NCBI RefSeq assembly: GCF_003569915.1
Contig: NZ_KZ984442.1
Coordinates: 1 to 64,000 of the forward strand
Direction of reading: 5' to 3'
Length of the DNA: 64,000 nucleotides
From: Comamonas testosteroni
Lineage (GTDB): Bacteria; Pseudomonadota; Gammaproteobacteria; Burkholderiales; Burkholderiaceae_C
In this document: positions 22,166-57,580 of the stretch, piece by piece
Layout: each line of letters begins with the position of its first letter
Numbering within the stretch: position 1 is the first letter of the stretch
Notes under the pieces: generated by a model
What the model saw: the letters and a program-made list of their open reading frames with translations, nothing else
Databases searched by the model: none
Told to the model about the DNA's origin: nothing
Position numbers and translations under genes: made by a program

Positions 22166-22282
22166 GCTCCCCCTGAGGCGCTTCGCGCCTTCCCCCTCTC
22201 TCTACGCGCTGCGCGCTAAGGGAGGGGGACGACAGCTTCGCTGCGCGGCGGCGCTTGCTCGCTGTCCCGCTTTTGGGGGCCG
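22166..22282 (+). repeat. GC-rich stop-codon-adjacent repeat, copy 1
   Basis: Begins four bases after the psiF-like stop with CCCCCTGAGGCGCTTCGCGCC and then CCCCCTC...GAGGGGG, followed by GACGACAG and GCTGCGCGGCGGCGCTTGCT. It can form two hairpins (GGCGC/GCGCC and CCCCCTC/GAGGGGG). Related copies are at 40385-40500, 56333-56450 and 57476-57580. The rest of the gap to 22468 shows no gene. Confidence 0.85.
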
Positions 22283-22468
22283 CCAGTTTTTAGCGTCGTG
22301 ACCAAAGCCACCATTTCGGTGGCTTTGTCGTTTCTGGCGCTCTGTTTGCACACCGTCCGCGCCTGCAATCTGCAATTCGCGGTCTGGGTTTTGCGGTTCG
22401 TCGCAATCGGCTGTCTTTCGGGTCATCGCCCAAACACAGTGCAGGTATTCCTTCTGGAGGGCTGCACC

Positions 22469-22870
22469 ATGCAACTCACGCCGCTCATCGCCATTCATGC
22501 CTTTTGCGCTATCGCTGCTGCCGCCATCGGCCCGGTTGCGCTCTGGGCGCGGCGCAGTGATGCGCCTCACCGGCCCCGCCTGCATCGCGCTGCCGGTTAT
22601 GCCTTTGTCACGCTGATGGTCGGGGCGGCCCTCTCGGCCCTATTTATCCGCGATTTCAAACTGCCCAACATCTGGGGCTACACACCCATTCATTTGCTGA
22701 TTCCGCTGACGCTGGTTGGACTGGTGCAGTCGTTCAGGTATCTGCTTGCAGGCCGCATAGACCAGCACCGCCGCATCATGCGCAAGCTCTACTTTGGTGC
22801 TTGCGTCACGGCGGGCCTTTTCACGTTGCTGCCCGGACGCCTGCTGGGCGACCTGCTCTGGAAACCGTAA
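22469..22870 (+). CDS. DUF2306-like four-helix membrane protein
   Basis: A 133-residue membrane protein with four hydrophobic segments (about residues 5-25, 42-60, 73-90, 107-125). Histidines occur near the membrane edges: H10, H34 and H39. The segments HRAAGYAFV and HRRIMRKLYFGA resemble DUF2306/YozB-like proteins. Function is unknown. The start at 22469 has GGAGG eight bases upstream. It probably begins the operon that continues with the 2TM protein (22-bp gap) and perhaps the LytS/LytTR pair. Confidence 0.75.
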   Translation: MQLTPLIAIHAFCAIAAAAIGPVALWARRSDAPHRPRLHRAAGYAFVTLMVGAALSALFIRDFKLPNIWGYTPIHLLIPLTLVGLVQSFRYLLAGRIDQHRRIMRKLYFGACVTAGLFTLLPGRLLGDLLWKP

Positions 22871-22892
22871 ACCCTCATTCAAGGAGAAAGCC

Positions 22893-23183
22893 ATGAACTG
22901 CGAACCCAATCAGGGCACGCTGCAACAACAGGCCCGCCGCCGCGCAGGCATGAAACTGGGTTGGTATCTGCATGCCTGCGTCTATCTCTGTGTGAACCTG
23001 GGGCTGATGGCTCTGGCCTTGAGTCAGGGCAGGCATTGGGCCATTTACCCGGCGCTGGGCTGGGGTCTGGGTTTGATGATGCATGGGCTGGTGGTCTGGC
23101 TGGCCTCGCCTTCCAGCCCCATATGGCAGCGCATGGTGCAGCGTGAATTGCAATCACTGCAAAAGTCCGAGTCCGGCCACTAG
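22893..23183 (+). CDS. 2TM-domain small membrane protein
   Basis: A 96-residue protein with two hydrophobic helices (about residues 22-42 and 48-70) separated by a short GRHWAIYPA turn. This matches the 2TM domain often encoded beside, or fused to, LytS-type histidine kinases. AAGGAG lies seven bases before the start. The stop codon TAG is formed by the first three bases of the MITE-like element at 23181. Likely a partner or modulator of the downstream kinase, by context only. Confidence 0.8.
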   Translation: MNCEPNQGTLQQQARRRAGMKLGWYLHACVYLCVNLGLMALALSQGRHWAIYPALGWGLGLMMHGLVVWLASPSSPIWQRMVQRELQSLQKSESGH

Positions 23184-23447
23184 GGCCTGTTCACATAACC
23201 CTCGGGGTCGCGCAAGCTGGACAGGGCTGCCAATGCGCGACGCGTGATGCAGTGCGGGTCGGGACCCGCACAAGGCGCGCAACAAAGCAGTGGTAGCCCT
23301 GCCCAGCTTGCCCTTCGGGTTGGGAATCTTGGGCGGTCTGCGGCGTTGCAGGTACTTGCAAGGTACCTACCTTGCTGCGTCCCTGCGCCTTGCATCCCAT
23401 CCCAAGATTCCCAACGCGATCCCCGTGCGTTATGTGAACAGGCCCTA
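23181..23447. mobile_element. MITE-like non-coding element with perfect 19-bp terminal inverted repeats
   Basis: The ends are TAGGGCCTGTTCACATAAC (23181-23199) and its exact reverse complement (23429-23447). The 267-bp interior has no credible gene and holds four inverted repeats: 23212-23228 with 23295-23311 (one mismatch), 23252-23259 with 23264-23271, 23321-23333 with 23401-23413, and 23358-23365 with 23368-23375. A TA at each outer edge would fit a TA target duplication, but it is also part of the repeat itself. It lies between the 2TM gene and the kinase gene. Confidence 0.82.
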
Positions 23448-23472
23448 GCCCCAAACGCTGCCCTCCCCTACG

Positions 23473-24558
23473 ATGCAAGCCATGCCCGCGTCCGCCCCCA
23501 GTCTGTCACTCCCATCCACCAGTGTGCTCAAGCATGGCTGGGTTGTGGTGTCTGTCTGCCTGCTGATTACCGTGCTTTTGACCTGGCTTGGGCAAGGCAG
23601 CTGGGATGTGAACCTGGTCTGTTCGCTGGCCATTGGTCTGCCCACCTGGCTGACGATCGAAATTGGACGCAGGCGCTTCAGCGATAGTGCCGACATACCC
23701 TGGCCCAAGGGCTGGCGCGGTGTGCTGCTGGTGGTCTGCGGCGTGCTGATCGGCTTTAGCCTTGGCAGCCTCATCGGCCACAGCTACCAGCGCTGGATGT
23801 ACCCGCAGCAAAGTAACGCCCAAACGCCTGAGCTGCTGTTTCCCATGCTGATCACCATTGCCTGCAGCGCAGGCATGTCCACTTTTTTCTTTCTGCTGGG
23901 CAAGGCCCGCTATCTGCAGATGCAGGCCGAGCAGTCACAGCGTCAGGCCGCAGAGGCCCATCTCCAACTGCTGCAGGCGCAGCTGGAGCCACATATGCTG
24001 TTCAACACCCTGGCCAATCTGCGGGTGCTGATTTCGGTGGACACCGCGCGCGCCGAGCAGATGCTGGACCACCTGATCGACTATCTGCGCGCCACGCTCA
24101 GCGGCTCACGCAGCGGCACGCACAGCCTGTCAGCCGAGTTTGCGCTGCTGGCCGACTATCTGGCACTGATGCAGATTCGCATGGCCGAGCGCCTGCGCTA
24201 CACGCTGGAGCTGCCTGCCGAACTGGCCGATGTACCCGTGCCGCCGCTGCTGCTGCAACCGCTGGTGGAAAACAGCATTCGCCATGGGCTGGAGCCGCAA
24301 CTGGCGGGAGGCCATATCCATGTGCAGGCCGCTCTGCTGAACGGAGATCGTGTTTGCCTTACTGTGCTCGACAATGGCGCGGGCCTGCCCCAGCCATTGC
24401 AAGAAGCAGAAGCCGATCCCCGCAAAGGCTTTGGGCTGCAGCAGATTCGTGAGCGGTTGGCCAATCGCTATGGTGATGCAGCCACTTTCAATTTGATAGC
24501 AGACAGCGCAAATGGAACCAAGGCTTCCATCATATTTCCTTTGAAATCAGTGTCATGA
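23473..24558 (+). CDS. LytS/YpdA-type sensor histidine kinase
   Basis: A 361-residue membrane kinase. Hydrophobic segments lie at about residues 15-40, 45-65, 77-100 and 117-140. A short coiled coil (LQMQAEQSQRQAAEAHLQLL) follows. The His_kinase box has H174 in LEPHMLFNTLANLR. The ATP-binding domain has the N box (QPLVENSIRHGLEP) and G boxes (LDNGAGLPQ, GFGLQQIRERL). It presumably phosphorylates the overlapping LytTR regulator. The signal is unknown. The start at 23473 or the Met three codons later is uncertain. The MITE-like element ends 25 bp upstream and may have replaced or altered its original leader. Confidence 0.9.
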   Translation: MQAMPASAPSLSLPSTSVLKHGWVVVSVCLLITVLLTWLGQGSWDVNLVCSLAIGLPTWLTIEIGRRRFSDSADIPWPKGWRGVLLVVCGVLIGFSLGSLIGHSYQRWMYPQQSNAQTPELLFPMLITIACSAGMSTFFFLLGKARYLQMQAEQSQRQAAEAHLQLLQAQLEPHMLFNTLANLRVLISVDTARAEQMLDHLIDYLRATLSGSRSGTHSLSAEFALLADYLALMQIRMAERLRYTLELPAELADVPVPPLLLQPLVENSIRHGLEPQLAGGHIHVQAALLNGDRVCLTVLDNGAGLPQPLQEAEADPRKGFGLQQIRERLANRYGDAATFNLIADSANGTKASIIFPLKSVS

Positions 24559-25343
24559 ACCCTGCACCACGCGCCCTGATTGCCGAAGACGAACCGCTGC
24601 TTGCGCAGGCGCTTGCACAGATGCTGGGCCAGCTCTGGCCACAGTTGCAGATTCAGGCCCTGGTGGCAGATGGTTTGAGCGCGGCCCAGCAGGCGCTGGA
24701 GCTGCTGCCCGATATGCTGTTTCTCGACATCCGCATACCTGGCCAAAGCGGGCTGGATGCCGCTGCCGAGATTGCGGACGCCTGGCCCGACGGCAAACCG
24801 CTGCCCGCCATCGTCTTTGTCACCGCCTATGACCAGTACGCGCTGGCCGCGTTTGAGGCCTGTGCCATGGACTATGTGCTCAAGCCCGTGCAGGCCCAAC
24901 GCCTGACGCAGACCGTGCAGCGCCTGCAACAATGGTGGCAGCAAGGCCATGAAGCGCAGCCCACACAGCTTGAGCAATTGTTCAAGCTGCAGCAGCAACT
25001 GCACACCGCACAGGCAGCGCCGCTGCAGATCATTCAGGCCAGCGTGGGCAACCAGATTCATATGGTGCGGGTGCAGGACATCATCTATCTGGAAGCCGCC
25101 GACAAATACCTGCGCGTGCTCACCGCGCAGCAGGAGTATCTGATTCGCACACCTCTCAAGGACTTGCTGCCGCAACTCGATACCCAGCAGTTCTGGCAGA
25201 TTCACCGCAGCACCGTGGTGCGCGCCGACGCAATTGCCAGCGTGCAGCGTGACGAGGCTGGGCGACTTTGGCTGCAACTGCGCAACCGGCCAGAAAAGCT
25301 GGCGGTCAGCCGCCTGTATGCCACGCGCTTCAAGGCGATGTAA
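24555..25343 (+). CDS. LytTR-family response regulator
   Basis: A 262-residue two-domain regulator. The receiver domain (1-~125) has the acidic cluster EDE at 11-13 and the phosphoacceptor D58 (FLDIRIPG). The C-terminal LytTR DNA-binding domain (~155-262) has IIYLEAADKYLRVLT and FWQIHRSTVVRADAI. A Gln-rich linker lies between them. The ATG overlaps the kinase stop (ATGA), so the two are translationally coupled. Its target genes are not visible. Confidence 0.92.
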   Translation: MNPAPRALIAEDEPLLAQALAQMLGQLWPQLQIQALVADGLSAAQQALELLPDMLFLDIRIPGQSGLDAAAEIADAWPDGKPLPAIVFVTAYDQYALAAFEACAMDYVLKPVQAQRLTQTVQRLQQWWQQGHEAQPTQLEQLFKLQQQLHTAQAAPLQIIQASVGNQIHMVRVQDIIYLEAADKYLRVLTAQQEYLIRTPLKDLLPQLDTQQFWQIHRSTVVRADAIASVQRDEAGRLWLQLRNRPEKLAVSRLYATRFKAM

Positions 25344-25358
25344 GTGCTGCTCAGGGCC

Positions 25359-26018
25359 TTACAAAACCATCACATCGTCCCAGTCCACGCCCTGCATGGC
25401 GTCCCAGTGCGCCACCATCACGCAGCGGGGCTGCGCCGGGTCTTTGAGCTGCACCGCCATATCGGCCAGCGCCCGCTGCACATAGCGCTCGGACGGTTTA
25501 TCGAGTGCAGCCAGCGGCTCATCGATCAGCACCAGCTCGGCACCGCTGGCCCAGCCCGCAGCCATCCACAGCTTGCGCTGCGAGCCTGAAGACAGCGCCA
25601 GCAAAGGCTTGTGCAGATGCGGCTCAAGCCCAAAGCCCTGCACATGCTGCTCAAACTGCGCGGCAGACCAGCGCGGGTAAATCGTGCGCTGCAGCGCCAC
25701 CCAGTCTGCAGCGGGCATGCGGCTGTGCGCATCGCTCAGCGGCTGGCGCGGGTCCTGCCAGAAAAACGATGAAGCGGGCAGCATGCCTGAAGGTGCAAAC
25801 GGGTAGTGCAGCATGCCGGTCTGCAGCGGCAACTGGCCCGCCAGCGCCTTGAGCCAACTGGTCTTGCCCGTGCCTTCGTCACCCTGCAGCAGACACAGGC
25901 CCGCATGCCAGCAGTGCGAGACACCATCAGCCACCAGCCGCCCCGGATAGCCAAAGCTGACCTGAATCGCCTGCACCATGCAATGCGTTTCACAGCAATC
26001 GTCAACTTCAGAATTCAT
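25359..26018 (-). CDS. Orphan ABC transporter ATP-binding protein
   Basis: A 219-residue ATPase with Walker A GDEGTGKT (46-53), Q-loop region FFWQDPRQPL, signature LSSGSQRKL and Walker B LVLIDEPLAALD. No permease or binding protein is nearby, so its partner is unknown. The start at 26018 lies inside a dispersed repeat and encodes an odd Cys-rich N-terminus. The Met at 25979 (MVQAIQVSFGYPG) begins where homology to ABC proteins starts and may be the true start. Neither has a good Shine-Dalgarno. Confidence 0.8.
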   Translation of the reverse strand: MNSEVDDCCETHCMVQAIQVSFGYPGRLVADGVSHCWHAGLCLLQGDEGTGKTSWLKALAGQLPLQTGMLHYPFAPSGMLPASSFFWQDPRQPLSDAHSRMPAADWVALQRTIYPRWSAAQFEQHVQGFGLEPHLHKPLLALSSGSQRKLWMAAGWASGAELVLIDEPLAALDKPSERYVQRALADMAVQLKDPAQPRCVMVAHWDAMQGVDWDDVMVL

Positions 26019-26066
26019 AGCAGATCCCGTATTACTTGTCTGGACTAGCGCCCAGTTTTATTCAAT
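26014..26066 (+). repeat. GGACTA-core dispersed repeat, copy E
   Basis: Contains CATAGCAGATC, TGGACTAGCGCCC and TTTTATTCAA. It lies between divergent genes. The possible ATG at 26018 of the ABC ATPase is part of it (reverse strand GCTATGAAT), as in copy F. Confidence 0.6.
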
Positions 26067-26134
26067 ACACCCATGCCAATGCGTTCATCGCATCACAGGC
26101 ACAATGTCGTCCCCTCATCAGCGAGCAATATGCC

Positions 26135-26500
26135 ATGGCTCTGGACTACCTGGAATTTGACTACAGCGAAGACGAAGAAGGCACGGGCACCTGGGATGCC
26201 ATGGCCAGCGTCAAAGCCGAGCGCGTTGCCGCACTGGCCGCTGAAATCGAGCAATTGCTGAGCTGGGCTAGCCGCGCTTTCGCTGGCCGCCAAGGTGCTG
26301 TGGAAGATGGCTTTGACTGGGACTATGACCTGCAGGCGCAGGACGATGATGGAGAGGCTTTGACGGCCCGCTTTGACAAAAGCACCGGCCAGCTGGCTCT
26401 GCAGGCATCGGTCACAGGGCGCACCACGGTCAATCTCTCGCTCTCGGGCTCGCTGCAGTTTGGTGATGCGCTGCGCGAGGCTTTTGATCTGGAAAACTAA
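26135..26500 (+). CDS. Hypothetical protein, acidic, 121 residues
   Basis: Not recognised. The product is soluble and strongly acidic, with DYSEDEEGTGTWDAMASVK near the N-terminus, an alpha-helical stretch (AALAAEIEQLLSWASRAF) and a C-terminal half rich in beta-type alternation (QLALQASVTGRTTVNLSLSG). The start at 26135 is chosen by protein composition; ribosome site GCGAG is weak. It is convergent with the pump operon's last gene, with a 3-bp gap. It has neither signal peptide nor membrane segment. Confidence 0.65.
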   Translation: MALDYLEFDYSEDEEGTGTWDAMASVKAERVAALAAEIEQLLSWASRAFAGRQGAVEDGFDWDYDLQAQDDDGEALTARFDKSTGQLALQASVTGRTTVNLSLSGSLQFGDALREAFDLEN

Positions 26501-26503
26501 GTT

Positions 26504-27031
26504 TCAGTCCTCGTCGCAAACGCATAGCAGCCACCAGAGATCGCGCTCTGGCTGCCAGACCAGATAGCCTGCGCAGTCCGTGGCAGCGCGCATCCATTGG
26601 CACCAGTCCATGCGGTCAAAGCGCCAGACCCACAGCTGTGCGAATGGTGCCGGAAAGACGGCACCCAGCATGTCGCCGACCTGTTTGCGAACCTCTGGCA
26701 AGGGCAGATGGCGGTTCAGCCCATGGCAGCCACCCTCATGCGCCAGCGCAATCAATGAGCCTTCAAACTCAAGGCGATTGAGCCGCGCAAACTGGATGTC
26801 CTGCAGATCGAGCGGACCCATGACCGTCTCCTCTGCCAGAGGCGCAAACCGCCGCATGAACTCCTGCATCCATTGCGCATAGTCGCCATGCATCAGCACC
26901 GGAGGGCGAGGCTTGATGAAGACCGACACCACCTCGCCGCACTGGGACAGTAGTTCCAGAAATTCATTGAGCTGCGTCTTCTGCACATCAACGATGTTCT
27001 GCGCAGTGAAGACAGGGGTGAAATTGCTCAC
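26504..27031 (-). CDS. Hypothetical protein encoded at the end of the RND pump operon
   Basis: Not recognised. The product is a 175-residue soluble protein, Trp-rich at its end (WVWRFDRMDWCQW, DLWWLLCVCDED). Its ATG overlaps the stop codon of the outer-membrane channel gene (ATGA), so it is translated from the pump mRNA. It has no signal peptide. A role linked to the pump is suggested by the coupling only. Confidence 0.7.
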   Translation of the reverse strand: MSNFTPVFTAQNIVDVQKTQLNEFLELLSQCGEVVSVFIKPRPPVLMHGDYAQWMQEFMRRFAPLAEETVMGPLDLQDIQFARLNRLEFEGSLIALAHEGGCHGLNRHLPLPEVRKQVGDMLGAVFPAPFAQLWVWRFDRMDWCQWMRAATDCAGYLVWQPERDLWWLLCVCDED

Positions 27032-28527
27032 GGCTTCACTGCGGCTTGTGTGGGTGACTGCACAGGCTGCCAGCGCCCCGCCACATTCTTGAGCAAGGTG
27101 TTCACCGCCGTGAGTCTGCGGTTTTGCACATTGATCAAGCTGGTCTGCGCGCTGATGACCGAAGTCTGGGCCGACAGCACATTCAGATAGGCCACGATGC
27201 CCGCCTTGTACTGGTTGTTGGCCACGGTCAGCGACTTCTGGGCGGCGGCCAGTGCCTCGACCTGCACCTGCTGCTCCTGCGCCAGATTGCTGGCGGCCAC
27301 CAGGTTGTCTTCCACCTCCTGCAAGGCCGTCAGCACGGTCTGCTTGTAGGTGGCTCCAGCCAGATCCAGTGATGCCCGGGCAGACTCCACCGCCGCACTG
27401 CGCGCGCCACCATCAAACAGGCTCAGCGCCAGCGATGGCCCGATTGACCAGAACAGATTGGGCGCATTGAACAGCTGAGACAGTTGCGAATTGCGATAAC
27501 CGGCGCCGCTGGACAAGGTCAGCGAAGGGAAGAAGGCCGCACGCGCCACGCCAATCTGTGCATTGGCGGCGGCCACGCGGCGCTCTGCCGCAGCGATGTC
27601 GGGGCGCTGCTCCAGCAAGGTGGAAGCCAACATCTCAGGCACCGCAGGGGGCTTGGGCAGGTGCCCCGTCACCGGCAGGCTAAAGGCCGCCGGGGCCTTG
27701 CCCAGCAGTGCGGCCAGCGCGTGCTCAAGCTGGGCGCGCGTGGTTTGTGCCTCGATCAGATTGGCCTGCGTGCTTTTGTACTGTGACTGGGCCTGGGCCA
27801 CATCGGCAGACGAGACCACGCCGGACTCGTAGCGGTTCTGTGTGAGCTTGAGGCTTTGTGCATAGTTGCTCAGGCTCTCCTGCAGAAACTGCATCTGCGC
27901 CTCAGCAGCGCGCAGCGAGAAATAGGTCTGTGCCACCGTGGCCTGTGCCGACAGGCGGGCGGCGGCCAGATCATCGCTGCTGGCCTGTGCCGTGGCCTTG
28001 TTGGCATCTACCGCGCCAGCCAACTTGCCCCACAGGTCCAGCTCCCAGCTGGCATTCAACCCCATGGAGAAGTTGTTGTTGATGGTGCCGCTGCGCGCCA
28101 CGTTCTCACCATTGGTGTTGCTGTAGGTGCCGCCGCCCGTCAAGGCGCGCGAGCCGCTGCCCGTGGCGCTGAGCGTGGGCAATTGCGCCGCGCGGCTGCT
28201 GGCCACACTGGCCTGAGCCGCACGCAAACGGGCCACGGCCTGCTCCACGCTGGGGTTGCCCGCGGCAGCTTCGTCCTGCAACTGGTTGAGTGTGGCGTCG
28301 CCATAGACCGTCCACCATTGCTCAGGCACCGTCGCAGCCGGGCTGCCCGCGCTGCTTTGCGCAGGCTGCCAGATGCCTTGTCTTGCCGCCTCTGGCGTGG
28401 CTTCCTTGAAGTTGGCAGGCACATCCGGCGCAGGCACTTTGTAGGCAGGTTGCAAGGAGCAGGCCGTCAGCAGCACGGCGGCGACCACGGGCACAAGACG
28501 CGGCACAGCAACGGCAGAATGCTTCAT
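27028..28527 (-). CDS. RND efflux outer-membrane channel lipoprotein (OprM/NodT family)
   Basis: A 499-residue TolC-like channel that completes the MdtABC-type pump. Begun at 28527, it has a lipoprotein signal with lipobox L-T-A-C (Cys23) followed by SLQPAYKVP, typical of the family. Two repeated OEP halves are visible (WWTVYGDATLNQLQDEA... and RPDIAAAERRVAAANAQIGVARAAFFPSLTL). An upstream in-frame ATG at 28596 has GAGAAG before it and lies just after the mdtC stop, so translation may begin there with a 23-residue extension that crosses a degenerate dispersed repeat. The downstream gene overlaps by 4 bp. Confidence 0.9.
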   Translation of the reverse strand: MKHSAVAVPRLVPVVAAVLLTACSLQPAYKVPAPDVPANFKEATPEAARQGIWQPAQSSAGSPAATVPEQWWTVYGDATLNQLQDEAAAGNPSVEQAVARLRAAQASVASSRAAQLPTLSATGSGSRALTGGGTYSNTNGENVARSGTINNNFSMGLNASWELDLWGKLAGAVDANKATAQASSDDLAAARLSAQATVAQTYFSLRAAEAQMQFLQESLSNYAQSLKLTQNRYESGVVSSADVAQAQSQYKSTQANLIEAQTTRAQLEHALAALLGKAPAAFSLPVTGHLPKPPAVPEMLASTLLEQRPDIAAAERRVAAANAQIGVARAAFFPSLTLSSGAGYRNSQLSQLFNAPNLFWSIGPSLALSLFDGGARSAAVESARASLDLAGATYKQTVLTALQEVEDNLVAASNLAQEQQVQVEALAAAQKSLTVANNQYKAGIVAYLNVLSAQTSVISAQTSLINVQNRRLTAVNTLLKNVAGRWQPVQSPTQAAVKP

Positions 28528-28550
28528 AAAAGTGAGCCGCTTGTGCTTAC

Positions 28551-28587
28551 GTTGATTAGGCTTGAAGCCATTTTGATTCAAAAACAA
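28551..28587 (+). repeat. Degenerate GGACTA-core repeat (copy I)
   Basis: Reads TTAGGCTTGAAGCC then TTTTGATTCAAAA, matching the right half of copies B-D. The left half is eroded. It sits between mdtC and the channel gene. Confidence 0.4.
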
Positions 28588-28603
28588 TGCTTGCATATTC
28601 TTC

Positions 28604-40371: not shown

Positions 40372-40384
40372 ACTAAAAATTCGC

Positions 40385-40500
40385 ACCGGGCGCCCCCCTA
40401 ATGCCAGGGACACCGAGGAAGGGCCGCCCCGCACCGATGGTGTCGTCCCCCTCCCGATGCAACGCATCGAGAGAGGGGGAAGCGGCAAAGCCGCTCAGGG
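40385..40500 (-). repeat. GC-rich stop-codon-adjacent repeat, copy 2
   Basis: On the reverse strand CCCCCTGA supplies the coxM stop codon (TGA, 40497-40495). It is followed by hairpin GCGGC-TTT-GCCGC and by CCCCCTC with CGATGC / GCATCG inside and GAGGGGG. Stem bases differ from copy 1 but still pair. Confidence 0.85.
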
Positions 40501-41277
40501 GGTGAGCGCAGCAACAACTCGACTAGTTTGAACACTAATCAGCTGCGCCCGATACCGCGCACTCGCATGCAGATCGCTGTTGAGTTCGCTGTCATCAATC
40601 TTCACGCTCGCCACTGCCACTGGCGTAAAGCTCTGATTGAGCGCGGCTTCCAGCCCTGCATGGCGAAACACCGAAAGGCCTGCACCTGTGATCGCCACAC
40701 GCACGCCTTGCGCGGTCTGGGCCACAAACACTCCCACCAGCGCAAAGCGCGAAGCTGGCTGCTTGAACTTCAGATAAGCCGCGGCCTTGGGCACAGGAAA
40801 GCGCACCGCCGTAATCAACTCGCCCTCTTCCAGTGCTGTGGTGTACATGCCCTGAAAAAAGTCATCAGCCGCAATCTCGCGGCGATTCGTGACCACGGTG
40901 GCGCCCAGACCCAGCACCGCGCTGGGGTAGCAAGCCGCAGGGTCGTTATTGGCAAGCGAGCCACCAATCGTGCCGCGTGCGCGCACCTGTCGGTCGCCAA
41001 TGCCGCCGGCCAGATGGGCCAGCGCCGGAATGGCGGCCTGTACCTCGCGGCTGGCGGCCACATCGGCGTGGCGAGTCATGGCGCCAATTTCGACCTGATT
41101 GCCGCTGACGCGGATACCGACCAGATCAGCCGCGCCATTGAGGTCCACAATCGCACCGGGCTGAGCCAGGCGCAGCTTCATGGATGGGATCAGGCTTTGC
41201 CCACCAGCCAGAAACTGGCCGCTGGCGGCAGCCGCTTCGGCAGCGGTCTTGGGGTTGGAATAACTAAAGGCGTACAT
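40495..41277 (-). CDS. coxM: FAD-binding subunit of a molybdenum hydroxylase (CoxM-like)
   Basis: A 260-residue flavoprotein subunit that passes electrons from the iron-sulfur subunit to the acceptor. FAD-binding motifs AGGQSLIPSMKLRLAQP (24-28 for AGGQS) and the later TIGGSLANNDPAACYP are present. It is slightly shorter than typical CoxM (~285). AAGGAG precedes the ATG at 41277. Its stop codon is provided by the GC-rich repeat that follows. Order S-L-M differs from the M-S-L order of Oligotropha. Confidence 0.9.
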   Translation of the reverse strand: MYAFSYSNPKTAAEAAAASGQFLAGGQSLIPSMKLRLAQPGAIVDLNGAADLVGIRVSGNQVEIGAMTRHADVAASREVQAAIPALAHLAGGIGDRQVRARGTIGGSLANNDPAACYPSAVLGLGATVVTNRREIAADDFFQGMYTTALEEGELITAVRFPVPKAAAYLKFKQPASRFALVGVFVAQTAQGVRVAITGAGLSVFRHAGLEAALNQSFTPVAVASVKIDDSELNSDLHASARYRAQLISVQTSRVVAALTP

Positions 41278-44360: not shown

Positions 44361-45566
44361 ATGCCACCCGCAAGCCTTGCCACCGTGACTGCGTCCCTGC
44401 CCCTACACACGGATCGCCATCAGCAGATCGCGCAGGCCCGTCACTTGCTGGTCAGTCACGAGCAAGCCCACGCCCCTGTTCCTGCAGGTGTCGCACCCTG
44501 GCTGTGGCGGTCGTGGCAGCGCTGCCTGAGCCATGGCCAGCGGCCCGCGCACAAGGTGGAGTTCGAGGCGGTCAGTCCCCATGCCCTCAAACGCACCCAG
44601 GAGCAGCACCACGCGCTGCTGGATGCGGCCCGGCCCGTGATGGCGCAACTGGTGGGCGCAGTTGGCGCCATGCGCTACTTCTGCCTGCTGACCGATGCGG
44701 CTGGCACGGTGCTGGAGGTGCAAGGCCCGGTGGACCGCCATGACATGCGGGCCCTGGCCGTGGGACGCGTGGGCGTTGATCTGTCCGAGCGCGGCGTGGG
44801 CACATCGGCCATAGGTGCGGCACTGGCCGAGCACAGCCCCGTGTGGCTGCACCAGAGCGAGCATTTTTTTGACGACCTGCGCGCCTATAGCTGTGCGGGT
44901 GCCCCCATCTTCGGCCCGCAAGGGCAGTGCCTTGGCATGCTGGATATCACCGGCATTGATGTGCCCGAGCGGCCCGAGCTGCTGCACCTGGCCATGCGCT
45001 GCGCGCGTGCGATTGAAGACCGGCTGCTGCGCGCCCTGCCCCATGCGCTGCTGCTGCATGTGAACTGGCCCGGAGGCCCGCTGGGCCAGGAAGGTGAGGG
45101 GCTGATGGCTTTTGACAGCGATGGCTGCCTGATCGGCAGCAACACCGTGGCCCGGCAACTGGTGCCACGGCCCTTGCAACCGCCGGGTCAGCCTTCGACC
45201 ATCCATAGCCAGGAGCTGCTGGCCCTGCCCTGGTCCCATCTGGTGGAACAAGCCCGCCAGCGCCCCGAGGCATTGTTACAACTGCCGCTCTGGTCGGGCC
45301 TCAGGCTGCAGGCGCTGATTCAGGCGGGACCACAACTGAGTCCACCTCATCTGGCGGGCGGGTTGGCCGTGCCAGAACTCTCAACCACAACCACCTCAAG
45401 ACTGCGCACCAGTGAGCACCTGCTTATCCAGCAAGCCTTGCAGGAGGCACAGGGCAATATCAGCCTGGCCGCCAAAAACCTAGGACTCAGCCGTGCCACG
45501 CTGTATCGGCGTCTGGCCTCGAAACGGTCTGTGACCGTGCCCTTATCGACTCAGGATTTGCCCTAG
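44361..45566 (+). CDS. AcoR-like regulator without AAA+ domain (GAF plus Fis-type HTH)
   Basis: A 401-residue regulator resembling the sensor part of acetoin-catabolism activators. The N-terminal SWQRCLSHGQ and a GAF-like region (~85-230, DLSERGVGTSAIGAAL, HFFDDLRAYSCAGAPIFGPQG) are followed by a spacer. The C-terminal Fis-type helix-turn-helix reads NISLAAKNLGLSRATLYRRL. No sigma-54-binding AAA+ module (GESGTGKE, GAFTGA) is present, so it cannot be a classic sigma-54 activator. GGAG lies five bases before the start at 44361. Divergent from the molybdenum hydroxylase operon, its likely target. Confidence 0.85.
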   Translation: MPPASLATVTASLPLHTDRHQQIAQARHLLVSHEQAHAPVPAGVAPWLWRSWQRCLSHGQRPAHKVEFEAVSPHALKRTQEQHHALLDAARPVMAQLVGAVGAMRYFCLLTDAAGTVLEVQGPVDRHDMRALAVGRVGVDLSERGVGTSAIGAALAEHSPVWLHQSEHFFDDLRAYSCAGAPIFGPQGQCLGMLDITGIDVPERPELLHLAMRCARAIEDRLLRALPHALLLHVNWPGGPLGQEGEGLMAFDSDGCLIGSNTVARQLVPRPLQPPGQPSTIHSQELLALPWSHLVEQARQRPEALLQLPLWSGLRLQALIQAGPQLSPPHLAGGLAVPELSTTTTSRLRTSEHLLIQQALQEAQGNISLAAKNLGLSRATLYRRLASKRSVTVPLSTQDLP

Positions 45567-46485: not shown

Positions 46486-46503
46486 CGGTAGCGGGAGATA
46501 CAG

Positions 46504-48354: not shown

Positions 48355-48372
48355 GCCAGCTCGCTTCCCATC

Positions 48373-48408
48373 GAAAGCCCCGTCTCGCAAGAGCCGGGGC
48401 TTTTTTCA
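48373..48408 (+). terminator. Intrinsic terminator of the TRAP permease operon
   Basis: AAAGCCCCG and CGGGGCTTTTTT pair around TCTCGCAAGAGC, with a T-run. Confidence 0.9.
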
Positions 48409-48445
48409 TGCCCGCTAAGATGAGCTGAAATCCAAAGATGCAACC

Positions 48446-49015: not shown

Positions 49016-49023
49016 GCAGAAAT

Positions 49024-49053
49024 GAAAAAACCGCAGCAAGCTGCGGTTTTTGT
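49024..49053. terminator. Bidirectional terminator between the hypothetical gene and the TRAP binding protein gene
   Basis: AAAAAACCGCAGC and GCTGCGGTTTTT pair around AA and have A and T runs at the two ends. Convergent genes. Confidence 0.9.
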
Positions 49054-49096
49054 AGCAGCCAGCCTATATGAATAGCTGGCTTGAACCCAATCAGAA

Positions 49097-50179: not shown

Positions 50180-50378
50180 TTCGGTCTCCTTGGATTGAAC
50201 AGGATGAGTTGGCACAAACAGCCGCTCTGGGTCGGCTTGTACGCGTGTAACAACCTCAAAATGTACACGAGCCACGAGATGCTCATGCAGCAAATAAGGC
50301 CTGTTGCATTAGGAAGTTCTACCTAGTGACTTGCATCAAACCGCCCCACGGAGATGGCTGCGCGCAAGCAATCGTTCA

Positions 50379-51461: not shown

Positions 51462-51604
51462 GAATATCTCTCCGCGAATAGTTGTCTATTTCCAAGACTT
51501 CTGGTTATAGCAGTCCGGGCACAAGCTGCGGACATTCTAGAAACGCATGCGCGGCCTGTGGGGAGATTGCGCGCTGCCGTCAGCCTTCATCCACACCACT
51601 GCAA

Positions 51605-51633
51605 GAAAAAAGGCCCTTCAGTGAAGGGCCTTG
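51605..51633 (-). terminator. Intrinsic terminator of dxs
   Basis: On the reverse strand GGCCCTTCACTGAAGGGCC forms a tight hairpin, followed by TTTTTTCTT. Confidence 0.9.
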
Positions 51634-51650
51634 GTTCGGCTTGGCAGTGC

Positions 51651-53516
51651 TCAGGCTGTCAGACGCTTGCGAATCGATGCCTCGATGCCAGCAGCATCCA
51701 GCCCCTGCAGCGCCAGCAGCTTGGCGGGGTCACCATGCTCGATGAACTGGTCGGGCAGACCCAGTTGCAGCACGTTCTTGCTCATGCCATGTGCGGCCAG
51801 CGCCTCCAGCACCGCGCTGCCTGCACCACCCATGATGCAACCCTCTTCCACCGTCACGATCAGATCATGCTCGGCAGCGACCTTGAGCAGCAGCTCTTCA
51901 TCGAGTGGCTTGGCCCAGCGCATATTGGCAACCGTGGCGTCCAGCGCTTCGCCTGCAGCCAATGCAGGATAGAGCAAGGAACCAAAGGCCAGAATCGCCA
52001 CCTTTTTAGCCGCAGATTCGCGGCGAATCTCGCCCTTGCCAAATGGCAGACCTTCCAGGCTTTCCAGCGGAACCACGCCCACACCTGCGCCGCGCGGATA
52101 ACGCACGCAGACGGGATGATCCTGCTCATAAGCCGTGGTCAGCAGCTGGCGGGTTTCACGCTCGTCAGCCGGGCAGGCCATGCTCATGTTCGGGATGCAG
52201 CGCACAAAGGCGATGTCGTAGGCACCGGCGTGCGTCGCGCCATCGGCACCGACCAGGCCTGCGCGGTCCAGCGCAAACACCACCGGCAAGTTTTGCAATG
52301 CCACGTCATGAATCAATTGGTCATACGCGCGCTGCAAGAAAGTGGAATAGATGGCGACCACCGGCTTGACGCCTTCGCAAGCCATGCCACCTGCAAAAGT
52401 GACGGCGTGCTGCTCGGCAATACCGACGTCGTAATAGCGACCGGGAAAGCGCTTGTGAAACTCGACCATGCCAGAGCCTTCGCGCATGGCCGGAGTAATG
52501 CCCACCAGACGCTGATCCTTGGCCGCCATATCGCATAGCCAGTGACCAAACACCTGCGTGAAGGTCTGCTTGGGCGGAGTGGCTGGCTTGACCAGACCGA
52601 CGGCGGGATCGAACTTACCTGGGCCATGGTAGGCAATGGGGTCAGCCTCGGCGAGCTTGTAGCCCTGACCTTTTTTGGTCACCACATGCAGGAACTGCGG
52701 ACCCTTCAAGCCCTTGATGTTTTCCAGCGTGGGGATCAGCGAGTCAAGATCATGACCATCGATAGGACCGATGTAGTTGAAGCCGAATTGCTCGAACATG
52801 GTGGCAGGAACCACCATGCCCTTGGCCTGCTGTTCCAGGCGCTTAGCCAGCTCCAGCAACGGCGGCACCTGTTTGAGCATGCTCTTGCCGACATCGCGGG
52901 CCTTGGCGTAGAACTGGCCGCTCATGAGCTGCGCCAGATAACGGTTCAGCGCCCCCACAGGCGGGCTGATGCTCATATCGTTGTCATTGAGGATGACCAG
53001 CAGATTTGCATCGGCCACACCACCATTGTTCAGCGCCTCAAAGGCCATGCCAGCCGTCATAGCGCCATCGCCAATCACGGCAATCGCACGGCGATCTTCG
53101 CCTTTTTGCTTGGCCGCCAGGGCCATGCCCAGGGCCGCCGAGATGCTGGTGGATGAGTGCGCCGTGCCGAAGGTGTCGTACTCGCTTTCAGCGCGCTGCG
53201 GAAAGCCCGACAGCCCACCCAGTTGGCGCAGCGTGGACATGCGGTCACGGCGGCCCGTCAGAATCTTGTGCGGGTAGGTCTGATGACCCACATCCCAGAC
53301 GATGCGGTCATAAGGCGTGTTGAACACCGTATGCAGCGCCACCGTCAGCTCCACGGTTCCCAGGTTGGAGCTCAGGTGCCCCCCTGTCTGCGAGACGCTG
53401 TCGATCACATAGGAACGCAGCTCTGCGGCCACGGTCTTGAGTTGCGCGCGCGACAGGCGGCGCATGGCTTCGGGGTCGTTAATGGACTGCAGCAGAGAGT
53501 ATGGGTTCGTGGACAT
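51651..53516 (-). CDS. dxs: 1-deoxy-D-xylulose-5-phosphate synthase Dxs
   Basis: Thiamine-diphosphate enzyme that joins pyruvate and glyceraldehyde 3-phosphate in the first step of the MEP isoprenoid pathway. The product is 621 residues, normal. The TPP-binding motif [18 protein letters not shown]...ILNDND, the [13 protein letters not shown] segment and the transketolase pyrimidine domain ([13 protein letters not shown]) are present. The leader immediately upstream is dispersed repeat copy J, and no Shine-Dalgarno is visible before ATG 53516. Last gene of the xseB-ispA-dxs row. Its TPP need connects it with the riboswitch-controlled thiC. Confidence 0.97.
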
Positions 53517-53524
53517 GATCTAAT

Positions 53525-53572
53525 TTTTAGTAGCTGCTCGCGCTTGCCGATACAGGACTAGAGGGCATTCAG
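53525..53572 (+). repeat. GGACTA-core dispersed repeat, copy J
   Basis: TAGTAGCTGCTCGCGCTTG and then ACAGGACTAGAGGGCATT. It lies between ispA and dxs, nine bases before the dxs start. Confidence 0.65.
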
Positions 53573-53597
53573 GGGGCAGGCAATTATCGACAGACAA

Positions 53598-54539
53598 TCA
53601 GTGTGTGCGCTGCACCACCATGTCGGCCAAGGCTGCCAACGCCTGTGTATCTGCTAGACCGCTGCGGGCCAGCGCTGCGTGGGCTTGCTGACGCAATTCC
53701 TCCGCATGGGCACGCGCCTGCTCCAGCCCCAGAAGTGAGACATAGGTCGGCTTGTTATTGGCAGCATCCTTGCCTGCCGTCTTGCCCAGTGTGGCAGAGT
53801 CGCCCACCACATCCAGAATATCGTCCACCACTTGGAAAGCCACGCCCAGTGCCTGACCATAATCCGTCAGCGCAGCCTGCGCCCTGGGATCGGTCTGTGC
53901 ATTGCAGGCCGCCCCCATGAGCACGCTCCCCTGCAGCAGCGCACCCGTTTTCAGGCGATGCATCTCGCGCAGCTGCGCCTCATTGAGCTGCTTGCCCACA
54001 CTGGCCAGATCAATGGCCTGGCCACCCGCCATGCCCTGACTACCCGCCGCAGCGCCTAGCAGGCGACAGAGCTTGGCCTGCATCGAGCAAGCAATACCAT
54101 CGCCCTCAGGCAGCAGCAGCTCGAACGCCAGCGCCTGGAGCGCATCACCCGCAAGCAGCGCTGCAGCCTCACCAAACTGCACATGGACCGTAGGCTTGCC
54201 ACGGCGCATCACATCATTGTCCATGCAAGGCATGTCGTCGTGAACCAGCGAGTAGGCATGGATCAATTCAACGGCACAACCTGCACGTAGAGTTGCTGCA
54301 GCATGACCGCCGACGGCTTCGGACGCGGCCCAGACAAGCAATGGGCGAAGGCGCTTGCCACCATCAAGCACGGCATAGCGCATGGCTTCGCCCAGGCCTG
54401 CGGGTGCACTCACACCCACCCAGCGCGACAGCGCCTCTTCCGTTCGAGCCAGGCGCTCGGTCGTCCAGGCGGAAAAATCCAGGGCTTGCACACCCTTGTT
54501 CAGAGAAGGCTGCTGTTCGGCAATCATTGATTCGTTCAT
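53598..54539 (-). CDS. ispA: Farnesyl/geranyl diphosphate synthase IspA
   Basis: A 313-residue short-chain polyprenyl synthase making farnesyl diphosphate from IPP and DMAPP. The first Asp-rich motif reads LVHDDMPCMDND and the second FQVVDDILDVVGD. DGGKRLRP and the GGQAID region are present. The C-terminal helices are complete. It lies 37 bp after xseB and 81 bp before dxs. The start at 54539 gives an N-terminal extension of about 15 residues over E. coli IspA; a Met four codons later is an alternative. Confidence 0.95.
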   Translation of the reverse strand: MNESMIAEQQPSLNKGVQALDFSAWTTERLARTEEALSRWVGVSAPAGLGEAMRYAVLDGGKRLRPLLVWAASEAVGGHAAATLRAGCAVELIHAYSLVHDDMPCMDNDVMRRGKPTVHVQFGEAAALLAGDALQALAFELLLPEGDGIACSMQAKLCRLLGAAAGSQGMAGGQAIDLASVGKQLNEAQLREMHRLKTGALLQGSVLMGAACNAQTDPRAQAALTDYGQALGVAFQVVDDILDVVGDSATLGKTAGKDAANNKPTYVSLLGLEQARAHAEELRQQAHAALARSGLADTQALAALADMVVQRTH

Positions 54540-54576
54540 GGGCTGATGCTGGAATATTCAAAAAGCACAACGCTGG

Positions 54577-54816
54577 CTAGTCCTGCGTCCAGGCCGACAA
54601 CTGGCCCTCATCCAGCACTTTCACCTGCTCCTGTACCGCCTCCAGTTGACTGCGGCAAAAGCCCAGCAGCTGGGCCGCACGCTGATAGCCACTGAGCATC
54701 TGCTCCAGCGGCATCTGTCCAGATTCAATCTGCGCAATCAACTGTTCCAGCTCCTGTAAAGCAGCTTCATAGCTGGCAGGCTGGTCGGATTTTTTGGCAG
54801 CAGCGGCCTTGGGCAT
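54577..54816 (-). CDS. xseB: Exodeoxyribonuclease VII small subunit XseB
   Basis: A 79-residue subunit of exonuclease VII. The conserved [32 protein letters not shown] helix pair is clear. Starting at 54816 ([13 protein letters not shown]) gives the standard length. The upstream open frame is coincidental. It heads the xseB-ispA-dxs operon, a conserved order in proteobacteria. Confidence 0.93.
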
Positions 54817-55215
54817 AGGCGATATAGGACAGTGTTGGACAGAAGCGACGATTTTAGGCGCGCCAGCCGCCTTGGCGCTCAATGCCCACAATCTCGCCCT
54901 TTCATCCAAAGATTCTCTGGCGCAGCAATTGAGGGATACGTCGCCAAAGCAGGCCTCCACACATACCCCACGGTTTCCAAGCCTTTGAACCACGCATCAA
55001 TACACGTACCAGAAAAACGGAAATAACCCCACAGGCTATAATCCCATTCCCCGTCAAGCCGGCCTCATGCTTGGTCATCCTGGTCGGGCTATGTGTCATA
55101 GGTCACAACCCTGATGCATTGCCTGAAGCTCGTGTCCAGTCAAGGCCGGTTTCGTTTTTATTACCGCGTGCGCACGCGCACCCTCCCTGTGGGGAGTCTT
55201 TAGGTCAGGTCACCC
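54817..55215. promoter_or_regulatory. Divergent xseB / Rieske gene intergenic region with possible structured leader
   Basis: This 399-bp region has no convincing gene. A perfect TATAAT lies at 55037-55042 in the Rieske direction, without a good -35. It would give a leader of roughly 165 nt containing GC-rich inverted repeats (GTGCGCACGCGCAC near 55167-55180, and CTCCCTGTGGGGAG just before the start). The xseB promoter must also be here. Confidence 0.4.
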
Positions 55216-56340
55216 ATGTCTGATTTAAGTCTTCAACTGCAGCAGGCCGCAAGCCAACTACCAGTTTCAAGTTATTTCGACCAAGCGCTGTTTCAGCGCG
55301 AGTTGGAAACCATTTTCAAGCGCGGGCCCCGTTATGTGGGTCATGAGCTTGCCATCCCCGAGATTGGCGACTATTACGCCCTTCCTCAAGAAAAGGAGGG
55401 GCGCGCGCTGGTGCGCAATGCCAAAGGCGAGATCGAGCTGATCTCCAACGTCTGTCGTCACCGTCAGGCCGTGATGCTCAAGGGTCGTGGCAATCTGCTG
55501 TCCGAAGGCAAAGGCCATGCGGGTGGCAACATCGTCTGCCCTCTGCACCGCTGGACCTACAGCACCAGCGGCGAGTTGCTGGGCGCGCCGCACTTTGGTC
55601 ATGACCCCTGCCTGAATCTCAACAACTACAAGCTGCGTGAATGGAATGGTCTGCTGTTCGAGGATAACGGCCGCGACATCGAGGCCGATCTCGCTGGCAT
55701 GAAGCTGCGCGAGCAGCTGAAGTTCGACGGCTTTGTGCTCGACCATGTCGAGATGCACGAGTGCAACTACAACTGGAAGACCTTCATCGAGGTCTATCTG
55801 GAGGACTACCACGTCGGCCCGTTCCACCCCGGACTGGGCAATTTCGTCACCTGCGACGATCTGAAGTGGGAGTTCGCCAAGGAGTATTCGGTGCAGACTG
55901 TGGGCGTGGCGCCGACCTTCGGCAACCCCGGCTCGGACACCTACAAGAAGTGGCACGACGTGCTGCTGCAGTACCGCAATGGTGAGCTGCCTGAGCGCGG
56001 CGCCATCTGGCTGACTTACTATCCTCACATCATGGTGGAGTGGTATCCGCATGTGCTGACGGTCTCGACCCTGCACCCGATGGCTGTGGACAAGACGCTG
56101 AACGTGGTGGAGTTCTATTACCCCGAGGAAATCGCGGCCTTCGAGCCCGAATTTGTCGAGGCGCAAAAGGCCGCCTATATGGAGACCTGCATCGAAGACG
56201 ACGAAATCGCCGAGCGCATGGACGGTGGCCGCAAGGCGCTGTTCGAGCGTGGCGACAACGAAGTCGGCCCCTACCAAAGCCCCATGGAAGATGGCATGCA
56301 GCACTTTCATGAGTGGTATAGGGGGGTTATGGCCCCCTGA
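55216..56340 (+). CDS. Rieske non-heme iron oxygenase alpha subunit-like protein
   Basis: A 374-residue protein of the ring-hydroxylating oxygenase class. The Rieske [2Fe-2S] ligands are C80/H82 and C108/H111 (CRH...CPLH). The gap between the pairs (25 residues) is longer than the usual 16-17. The mononuclear iron site is likely H199 and H204 in EDYHVGPFHPGL, with a downstream acidic ligand. No reductase or beta subunit is adjacent, so it must borrow electrons from elsewhere. It is divergent from xseB. Substrate unknown. The stop codon is provided by a GC-rich repeat. Confidence 0.87.
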   Translation: MSDLSLQLQQAASQLPVSSYFDQALFQRELETIFKRGPRYVGHELAIPEIGDYYALPQEKEGRALVRNAKGEIELISNVCRHRQAVMLKGRGNLLSEGKGHAGGNIVCPLHRWTYSTSGELLGAPHFGHDPCLNLNNYKLREWNGLLFEDNGRDIEADLAGMKLREQLKFDGFVLDHVEMHECNYNWKTFIEVYLEDYHVGPFHPGLGNFVTCDDLKWEFAKEYSVQTVGVAPTFGNPGSDTYKKWHDVLLQYRNGELPERGAIWLTYYPHIMVEWYPHVLTVSTLHPMAVDKTLNVVEFYYPEEIAAFEPEFVEAQKAAYMETCIEDDEIAERMDGGRKALFERGDNEVGPYQSPMEDGMQHFHEWYRGVMAP

Positions 56341-56450
56341 AGCGCTACGCCTTGACGGCTTCGCGCCTTCCCCTAGCCGGGCGCCCCCCGAGGGGCACTG
56401 CGCCTTTGCTGCGAGGCGGCTCTTGCTCGGCACCCCTGAGTTGGGTCATG
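56333..56450 (+). repeat. GC-rich stop-codon-adjacent repeat, copy 3 (divergent)
   Basis: CCCCCTGA supplies the stop of the Rieske gene (56338-56340). Next come GGCTTCGCGCCTTCCCC, GGGCGCCCCCCGAGGGGC and a GCTGCGAGGCGGCTCTTGCT block. It has the same opening and closing blocks as copies 1 and 4 but a changed middle. Confidence 0.7.
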
Positions 56451-56487
56451 CCTGTTCTATATGCTGTTGACCATGTGTAGAAAATAT

Positions 56488-56540
56488 TAAAACTGATAGC
56501 TGCTAGCGCATATCCTATAAGCGCAGCAGCTATTTTTTAT
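56488..56540 (+). repeat. GGACTA-core dispersed repeat, copy G (left half)
   Basis: AACTGATAGCTGCTAGCGCA and TATCCTATAA, then GCGCAGCAGCTATTTTTTA, which pairs back on the left half to make a hairpin (AGCTGCT / AGCAGCT). Lies just upstream of the DMT transporter gene. Confidence 0.55.
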
Positions 56541-56557
56541 GCTGAATTGAGTGAGTT

Positions 56558-57472
56558 ATGAGAGCCCTGTGGATGGTGCTGGCCGCATTGATTTTTGCGG
56601 TCATGAGTGTGTGTGTGAAGTTTGCATCCAGGGACTTCAATGCAGCAGAGATTATTTTTTACCGTGGTTTGGTCAGCATGGGTCTGCTGGCCCTGCTGGC
56701 CAAGCAAAGCGGCGTGTCATTAGCCACCCGATACCCCAAGGAGCATGCGTGGCGCAGCTTTGTAGGGGTGATTTCCATGGGAGCCTGGTTCTACGCTATT
56801 GGTCACCTCGACCTTGCTACCGCCACCACACTCAACTCCATGAGCAGCATCTGGATGGCCGTGTTTCTGATCGCCCAGGGCCTGTGGATGCGCCACACGC
56901 TGCGCAAAAGCTACGCTGCCCAGCCGGAAATCCGCCGCGCCATCCCGCCTTTCCCCTGGGCTCTGGTCGGCACGGTGGTGCTCGGTTTTATCGGAGTGAT
57001 TCTGGTACTGCGCCCCACCAGCGCGCCCGCCAGTGAATGGATTGCCGCACTGGGCGGCCTGTTTGGCGGCATGTTTGCGGCGATGGCCTATATGCAGGTC
57101 ACAACCCTCTCGCGCCTTGGAGAGCCCGAAACCCGCGTGGTCTTCTACTTCTCGCTGGGATCCGCCATTGCGGGCGGCATCACCATGCTGTTTACCGGCA
57201 TATCCCCCTTCCCGGGCTGGAGCGCGCTGTGGCTGCTTCCCGTCGGCGTGCTGGCCGCCGTGGCCCAGGTCTGCATGACCAAGGCCTATGCCTCGGCAGG
57301 GACCAAGCGCAACACGCTGGTCGTGGCCAATCTGCAGTACTCGGGCATTGTGTTTGCAGCCCTGCTGAGCCTGGTGCTGTTTGGCGAGAGCATTCCCCTG
57401 ATCGGCTGGGTGGGCATTGTGCTGATTGTGGTCAGTGGGGCGGCGGCTACGGCGCTGAGGTCGAGAAGCTGA
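56558..57472 (+). CDS. DMT-superfamily (EamA) transporter
   Basis: A 304-residue inner-membrane exporter with ten hydrophobic helices in two EamA repeats. The start MRALWMVLAALIFAVMSVCV and FYRGLVSMGLLALLAKQSG are typical. Exported compound unknown; related members export amino acids or metabolites. No Shine-Dalgarno is obvious, and GTGAGTT precedes the ATG. Followed directly by a GC-rich repeat. Confidence 0.88.
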   Translation: MRALWMVLAALIFAVMSVCVKFASRDFNAAEIIFYRGLVSMGLLALLAKQSGVSLATRYPKEHAWRSFVGVISMGAWFYAIGHLDLATATTLNSMSSIWMAVFLIAQGLWMRHTLRKSYAAQPEIRRAIPPFPWALVGTVVLGFIGVILVLRPTSAPASEWIAALGGLFGGMFAAMAYMQVTTLSRLGEPETRVVFYFSLGSAIAGGITMLFTGISPFPGWSALWLLPVGVLAAVAQVCMTKAYASAGTKRNTLVVANLQYSGIVFAALLSLVLFGESIPLIGWVGIVLIVVSGAAATALRSRS

Positions 57473-57475
57473 TAG

Positions 57476-57580
57476 CTCCCCCTGAGCCGCTTCGCGACTT
57501 CCCCCTCTCTGCTTCGCGGAGGGGGACGACAGCCTCGCTGCGCGGCGGCGCTTGCTTGCTGTCCCTGATTTGGGTACGCG
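57476..57580 (+). repeat. GC-rich stop-codon-adjacent repeat, copy 4
   Basis: Starts three bases after the EamA gene stop. CTCCCCCTGAGCCGCTTCGC, then CCCCCTC / GAGGGGG around TCTGCTTCGCG, then GACGACAGCC and GCTGCGCGGCGGCGCTTGCT. Very close to copy 1. The rest of the gap to 57723 shows no gene. Confidence 0.88.

Follow-up and report, generated by a model that had tools for sequence, protein, structure and literature searches.

Why small palindromic repeats cluster after stop codons is an open question, and a stretch of 64,000 nucleotides from Comamonas testosteroni (positions 1–64,000 of contig NZ_KZ984442.1, assembly GCF_003569915.1; hereafter, the window) raises it in a pointed form: a GC-rich repeat stands at the stop codons of four genes, and its attachment to stops proves near-absolute, strand-specific and common to multiple genera. 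A sequence-only reading of the window had described four related GC-rich blocks, at 22166–22282, 40385–40500, 56333–56450 and 57476–57580, and had proposed that they are selected as a transcribed structure at mRNA 3′ ends and are not just a DNA parasite. The interpretation that we prefer, at a probability of roughly 0.6, is that the repeat is a mobile three-hairpin palindrome, resembling repetitive extragenic palindromic (REP) and BRE elements, that settles on the sense strand at stop codons and gene 3′ ends. The observations that carry it are the copy number, the strand-specific abutment, the covariation, the insertions relative to related genomes, the lack of a T-tract conserved across genera and the dissimilarity of copies at shared gene ends. 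As far as searches of the literature show, what seems to be new is how strong and how strand-specific the stop rule is, together with the turnover at gene ends that two species have in common. Below, "own" denotes the source genome, and the prefixes L, G and C denote loci, genomes and own contigs, respectively.

Alignment of the four blocks showed that they are one repeat, and all were matched (65.1–123.8 bits) by a covariance model seeded with 53 own copies, which include copies 1, 2 and 4, with copy 3 outside the seed. Each keeps the orientation of its upstream gene, as had been noted from the sequence, and each is a single unit without tandem arrangement. Copy 1 (22165..22301, plus strand, 121.1 bits; CCCCCTGAG head at 22169–22177) begins its CCCCC 3 nt after the TAA stop (22163..22165, plus) of a PsiF-repeat gene (open reading frame (ORF) 21755–22165), and copy 4 (57474..57599, plus, 123.8 bits; CCCCCTGAG head at 57478–57486) does so 5 nt after the TGA stop (57470..57472, plus) of an EamA gene (ORF 56558–57472). 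The element's own TGA, within CCCCCTGA, serves as the stop of the other two genes, as already recognized: in copy 2 (40372..40506, minus, 122 bits), TGA 40495–40497 ends the FAD_binding_5 gene (coxM; ORF 40495–41277, minus), and in copy 3 (56329..56469, plus), TGA 56338–56340 ends the Rieske gene (ORF 55216–56340). Copy 3 is divergent, scoring 65.1 bits versus 121–124 for the others. The sequence CCCCCTGAG occurs three times in the window, against a shuffle mean of 0.69. When the window was searched against Rfam at the gathering threshold, no family matched at the repeat, and a thiamine pyrophosphate (TPP) riboswitch elsewhere was the sole match.

The repeat runs from a CCCCCTGA(G) head through hairpin 1, hairpin 2, a GACG-type linker and hairpin 3 to a tail around GCCAGTTT, and the model matches in the source genome are 99–165 nt long. 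Hairpin 1 is an A-G-n-n-G-C stem with a 3-nt loop; hairpin 2 is CCCCC...GGGGG, with an apical palindrome that is variable or nearly absent; and hairpin 3 consists of a 6-bp outer, a 2-bp middle and a 3-bp inner stem around GCGG. In copy 1, sequence and pair counts place hairpin 1 (AGGCGC/GCGCCT) at 22176..22190 and hairpin 3 (GACAGC/GCTGTC, inner GCG-GCGG-CGC) at 22231..22266, and sequence and fold place hairpin 2, with its apical palindrome, at 22192..22228, all on the plus strand. Folded one by one as RNA, copies 1–4 exceed shuffles in stability only slightly (z = −2.17, −2.59, −1.27 and −1.19), and for copies 3 and 4 the fold of lowest energy departs from the three-hairpin form. The paired stem changes that had been described among the window copies were found again, and they extend to a broad covariation. 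In an alignment of 53 matches, two of them truncated, from other genera and from other members of the genus, 14 of 26 pairs are altered on both sides; cells with both partners changed number 113, where shuffles give 35.5 ± 4 and slid partners no more than 7. This alignment had been fitted to the covariance model and thus leans towards the model's structure. A GGGGCCGCCTAGG-like insert is nested in the loop of hairpin 3 in several copies (L001, L023, L024, L039, L058, L065 and own C5:164001), and one copy has the reverse complement of such an insert in the loop of hairpin 1.

A 30-base degenerate pattern, with up to 3 mismatches allowed, matched 136 places in the source genome and its reversed form none, and the covariance model found at least 150 matches there. 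Per-genome counts from many of the searches are lower bounds, in which the best 150, 57, 14 or 11 matches were scored. Among 61 relatives, 35 were matched, comprising 34 of 37 genomes of the same genus (own counted) and 1 of 24 from other families, the latter being borderline (E = 5.6e-4). At the family level, matches occurred in 102 of 250 genomes and 72 of 141 genera, and at the order level (E ≤ 1e-5) in 10 of 300 genomes, two of which lie outside the family. The genomes behind the named loci yielded at least 150 matches in C. testosteroni ATCC 11996, 149 in A. facilis, 145 in Acidovorax sp. sif1233, 95 in a Delftia acidovorans metagenome-assembled genome (MAG), 78 in Acidovorax soli, 56 in A. 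temperans, 46 in Paracidovorax citrulli, 25 in Delftia sp. PS-11, 12 in C. aquatica, 4 in Diaphorobacter aerolatus, 1 in Tepidicella, and none in Corticibacter or Vandammella. Head-to-tail arrays occur in other genera (L095 and L093). On own contig C18, two copies (45085–45198, plus; 45212–45348, minus) lie tail-to-tail, 13 nt apart.

How general is the stop-codon contact seen in the window? We used an annotation-free test that looks for an open frame of at least 100 codons ending in a co-oriented stop at −30 to +8 of the CCCCC head. Such a stop was present in 89 of 96 own copies, in 46 of 51 copies of a second set, drawn from other genera and from three members of the genus, and in 14 of 16 copies from the Rieske loci; at control positions shifted by 100–300 nt, it was present in 1–9 of 96, 1–13 of 51 and 0–3 of 16, respectively. 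The 96 own copies come from those of the 136 pattern places that were listed, a choice that favours well-preserved copies. Among the 89 abutting own copies, 85 have the stop within 11 nt or use the element's TGA, which is itself the stop in 12. Four of the seven misses outside the source genome are inner array members (three in L095 and one in L093), and the others are L187, where the element lies within the gene end and the frame reads through, L119 and L138. With a threshold of at least 60 open codons, 93 of 99 copies in a second own set abut a stop, distributed over the score thirds, from best to worst, as 33/33, 32/33 and 28/33. A simple purpose-written codon-usage gene caller assigned a same-strand upstream neighbour to 88 of the 96 own copies, 62 of which lie between tandem genes and 25 between convergent genes. 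The strand bias and the link to gene 3′ ends that the sequence-only reading had raised are thus borne out, and the link to stop codons is stronger than that reading had described.

Such a distribution could in principle arise by sorting, if insertion were random and only copies just 3′ of a stop survived, those elsewhere having damaged coding sequence, terminators, promoters or ribosome-binding sites. The tight settings are in keeping with this, since most own copies lie between tandem genes and, in 37 of the 62 tandem settings, the distance from the element start to the next ORF (longest start) is at most 165 nt. However, sorting leaves unexplained both the sense orientation and the abutment to a single stop in convergent settings. 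It would also be expected to leave the best-preserved copies more scattered, and the gradient over the score thirds runs opposite to age sorting, with the best third complete. We therefore judge sorting to be very improbable as the source of the rule. A choice made during integration itself would fix both place and orientation if the machinery used the non-template single-stranded DNA of an R-loop extending from the stop, where the last ribosome leaves. We offer this route tentatively and consider it rather unlikely as it stands; a literature search on R-loops and insertion returned nothing relevant. If it were true, stop abutment would be a targeting rule.

Comparison with relatives shows gene ends that the element has entered. 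The Rieske protein encoded in the window is 94% identical to that of C. testosteroni in the best segment; the frame of the latter (L132) ends in WYRRIMGDSVPQR-stop, and that of the window ends in WYRGVMAP-stop, about five codons earlier, with the last residues and the stop contributed by the element. Beyond copy 3, a hairpin, ATAGCTGC...GCAGCTATTTTTT, follows the window Rieske gene and likewise follows its counterparts in L132 and in the relative G308, both without the element. In the window this hairpin (ATAGCTGC...GCAGCTA, then TTTTTT) spans 56496..56538 on the plus strand and is the probable native terminator. Among 80 Rieske loci, the model found a gene-end element in two, A. facilis L187 and MAG L197, the latter with a TGA directly ahead of the element head; 22 of 24 Rieske loci inspected at the gene end had none. 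At the gene end in the ispA position, Delftia L133 and Acidovorax L210 carry the element, and L143, L205 and L204 do not. Insertions are thus visible against empty relatives at the Rieske end (window versus L132 and G308), in L133 versus L143, in L210 versus L204 and L205, and at further sites versus G308, which has no element at the gene ends holding copies 1 and 2. In one convergent gap, the element lies 3′ of one gene in L195 and 3′ of the opposite gene in L187 and L172, each time in gene sense; of six further loci with this gap, five have none and L193 has a masked stretch. Because these gene ends are empty in relatives, copies must insert, sometimes inside the last codons. A gene pair on own contig C4 overlaps by stop and start (TGATG), and G308 (piece 178502–178627) has an element between the two genes; either coupled genes were split by insertion or they were re-joined by element loss.

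Two regions, on own contigs C4 and C5, were compared with G308 by synteny, the C5 aligned blocks being 74–90% identical. All 13 matches on C4 were used and 12 of the 15 strong matches on C5, where three fell outside the G308 stretch; two weak matches (25.6 and 24.5 bits) were dropped. An element in G308 occupies the same gene end for 12 of 24 resolved own elements, with one more ambiguous, and conversely 12 of the 20 G308 elements that could be resolved have an own counterpart, again with one more ambiguous. Among the sites scored as empty, own C5:96209 rests on a 1489-nt target gap, and two hold decayed remnants by eye (own C4:133348 in G308, and G308 piece 77504 in the source genome). Ranked by similarity among the 21 G308 elements, the partners stand at 1, 1, 2, 2, 7, 8, 9, 9, 12, 13, 13 and 18; the gene end of copy 4 is also occupied in G308, with rank 18. 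Gene ends thus remain occupied, and in 8 of the 12 pairs the two occupants are no more alike than unrelated copies. Gene conversion, re-insertion or selection for keeping some element could cause such turnover, and the last of these would favour a role in mRNA.

That role would be that of a cis-element under selection, whose hairpins after the stop slow 3′ exonucleases or affect terminating ribosomes, mobility being only the route of spread. It draws on the strand-specific stop abutment, the strong covariation, the gene ends held in common with G308 despite mostly dissimilar occupants, the frequency of operon-like gaps and the precedent of Escherichia coli REPs lying within 15 nt of a stop codon, for which such action is reported (PMC12306157). 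Pairing kept in sense RNA should, however, tolerate G-U better than A-C. Over 2234 pair cells, taken from 97 hairpin-1 and 71 hairpin-3 sequences of the source genome and 59 and 47 from others, we counted 2170 Watson–Crick, 7 G-U, 16 A-C and 41 other combinations; the search expressions fix some conserved positions, and they read only 71 hairpin-3 sequences in the own set. The lack of a G-U preference weakens the case for selection at the RNA level. In addition, many gene ends of relatives, and 3 of the 37 genus genomes, are without the element, and DNA hairpins can yield covariation too. We consider an mRNA element, whether as a stabilizer or as a translation-termination context, the main rival, possible and still unlikely. 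Of the original proposal of a selected transcribed structure, the strand bias, the 3′-end link and the covariation stand, the three points whose absence had been named as refuting it; selection as RNA rather than as a DNA parasite is not supported: the assertion that the repeat is not just such a parasite runs against the G-U and A-C counts and against the empty gene ends in relatives, which mark the copies as insertions.

Termination of transcription, one of the roles first suggested, fares worse. GC-rich hairpins at gene ends are what an intrinsic terminator of the upstream gene would offer, a run of at least four T near the 3′ end is present in 58 of 96 own copies, and a terminator-like motif ends inside the element in 35 of 96, a figure that comes without a control. 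Outside the genus, however, just 9 of the 51 copies in the second set have such a T-run, and a hairpin with a direct T-run is therefore not a feature common across genera, on which basis we rejected assignment to the intrinsic terminator class. Terminator-like motifs lie downstream of 36 of the 96 own copies, against 17.4 in shuffles, and the TTTTTT hairpin 3′ of copy 3 is present in element-less relatives as well. The closeness of the next ORF in so many tandem settings is also awkward for a terminator. Termination as a shared role is unlikely, and we give an intrinsic terminator of the upstream gene hardly any credence.

Taken together, a mobile palindrome that settles at gene ends accounts best for these data, and we picture its course as follows. 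A non-autonomous element would insert at gene 3′ ends in sense orientation, either immediately after the stop or a few codons upstream, and in the latter case its own TGA would usually become the stop. The preference would act at the insertion step rather than through later sorting, and the element would come to lie ahead of the native terminator or of the start of the next gene. A mobilizing enzyme would move it; copying and homogenization as hairpin-forming DNA may keep the stems paired, upkeep thus acting at the DNA level; gene conversion or re-insertion may drive the turnover; and the structured mRNA 3′ end would be a by-product.

Several points weigh against this interpretation. The persistence of elements at gene ends common to both species may equally reflect host retention. 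The G-U counts make a small test, which its tRNA control (5 G-U and 3 A-C in 132 pairs of 11 tRNAs) fails to calibrate. The use of score as a proxy for age, on which the argument from score thirds depends, is an assumption. The stop is not always supplied by the element, since the Rieske frame of A. facilis L187 stays open across the entire element and ends at a TAA beyond it. Inspection by eye for target-site duplications gave possible short repeats at single sites and nothing consistent. Moreover, no mobilizing enzyme was found: the locus of the single Y1_Tnp gene in the source genome is without a repeat copy at E ≤ 0.1, and the domain, which 34 of 38 genomes of the genus encode whether rich or poor in copies, is unrelated to copy number. 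With neither linkage to the repeat nor correlation with copy number, Y1_Tnp was rejected as a REP-associated tyrosine transposase (RAYT) partner. As an observation in its own right, the read-through frame in L187 (1383–1565) gives the Rieske protein an element-encoded C-terminal extension.

Because the stop rule is near-absolute, strand-specific, found again in other genera and complete in the best-scoring copies, targeting, host selection and safe-harbour sorting could be separated in a laboratory strain. Many gene ends in Comamonadaceae bear this recurrent structured tail, which is relevant to annotation and transcriptome work.

The window holds other features apart from the repeat. The TPP riboswitch (58.2 bits; 5507–5628, minus) lies upstream of thiC (ORF 3298–5274, minus). 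Another family of intergenic repeats, each about 62 nt long (ACTATCAAAA...ATAGCTA), with members 65–74% alike at 7835–7896, 8696–8757 and 20733–20794, is unrelated to the three-hairpin repeat and resembles the ATAGCTGC hairpin 3′ of many Rieske genes. A repetitive protein is encoded by ORF 15682–18504 (minus), which contains three 188-nt direct repeats at a spacing of 171 nt (16865–17394, 90–96% identical).

Among known systems, two REP classes were considered and rejected. CGTC REPs are reported to have no dedicated transposase, occur mostly as head-to-head dimers and have a stem of 8–9 bp starting with two A-T pairs and a loop of 4–5 nt (PMC3733652). The present repeat likewise has CGTC on the reverse strand beside hairpin 2 (GGGGGACG); the GACG is tag-like, but the hairpin-2 stem opens with C-G pairs and its loop varies. 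For the GTAG REPs, the consensus lacks GTAG and an association with a RAYT is missing.

A closer likeness is offered by the BRE family (Hot et al. 2011, PMC3110155), the only report that looked relevant among those returned by literature searches for earlier accounts in Comamonadaceae. That paper describes units of 75–91 bp, often in tandem, at no more than 29 repeats per genome and without a known function, in Betaproteobacteria including Comamonadaceae (Delftia and Acidovorax), mostly intergenic and with some overlapping ORF ends; in its main text, the term "stop codon" is absent. Both repeats are short, GC-rich and betaproteobacterial with features of mobile elements, and the host range agrees, the present repeat being found in 11 of 13 named-locus genomes, including the D. 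acidovorans MAG and P. citrulli. It differs in its length (99–165 nt) and in its copy number (at least 136). As to tandem arrays, the picture is mixed: they are present in L095, L093 and G393, and the four window copies are single. In G393, which belongs to another family, two loci contain tandem model-hit units spaced by 120/119 and 86/64 nt with the hairpin order kept; these fit the BRE description, the 86-nt spacing being seen in G393 only. Within that family, the first unit has a stop at its head in two of five loci (L252, and L256 from G432), not in L253–L255, and three loci from genera of the source genome's own family (L257–L259) have the inner hairpin of the G393 form, each abutting a stop, and look intermediate. 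A BRE origin is thus likely for the window element, a placement that compares it with BRE by description only and, with the unit length differing, does not file it as BRE.

The E. coli REPs and bacterial interspersed mosaic elements provide the other comparison. They too are extragenic hairpin repeats, many of them shortly after stop codons: according to PMC12306157, a stop is found no more than 15 nt away for 446 of 4,072 predicted REPs, and for 260 of the 496 in a set cited there from earlier work. Targeting of translation stops, if it occurs here, might also explain these stop-near REPs. The repeat described here differs in being at stops in about nine of ten copies and strand-specifically so, in being three times longer and in having three hairpins in a fixed order.

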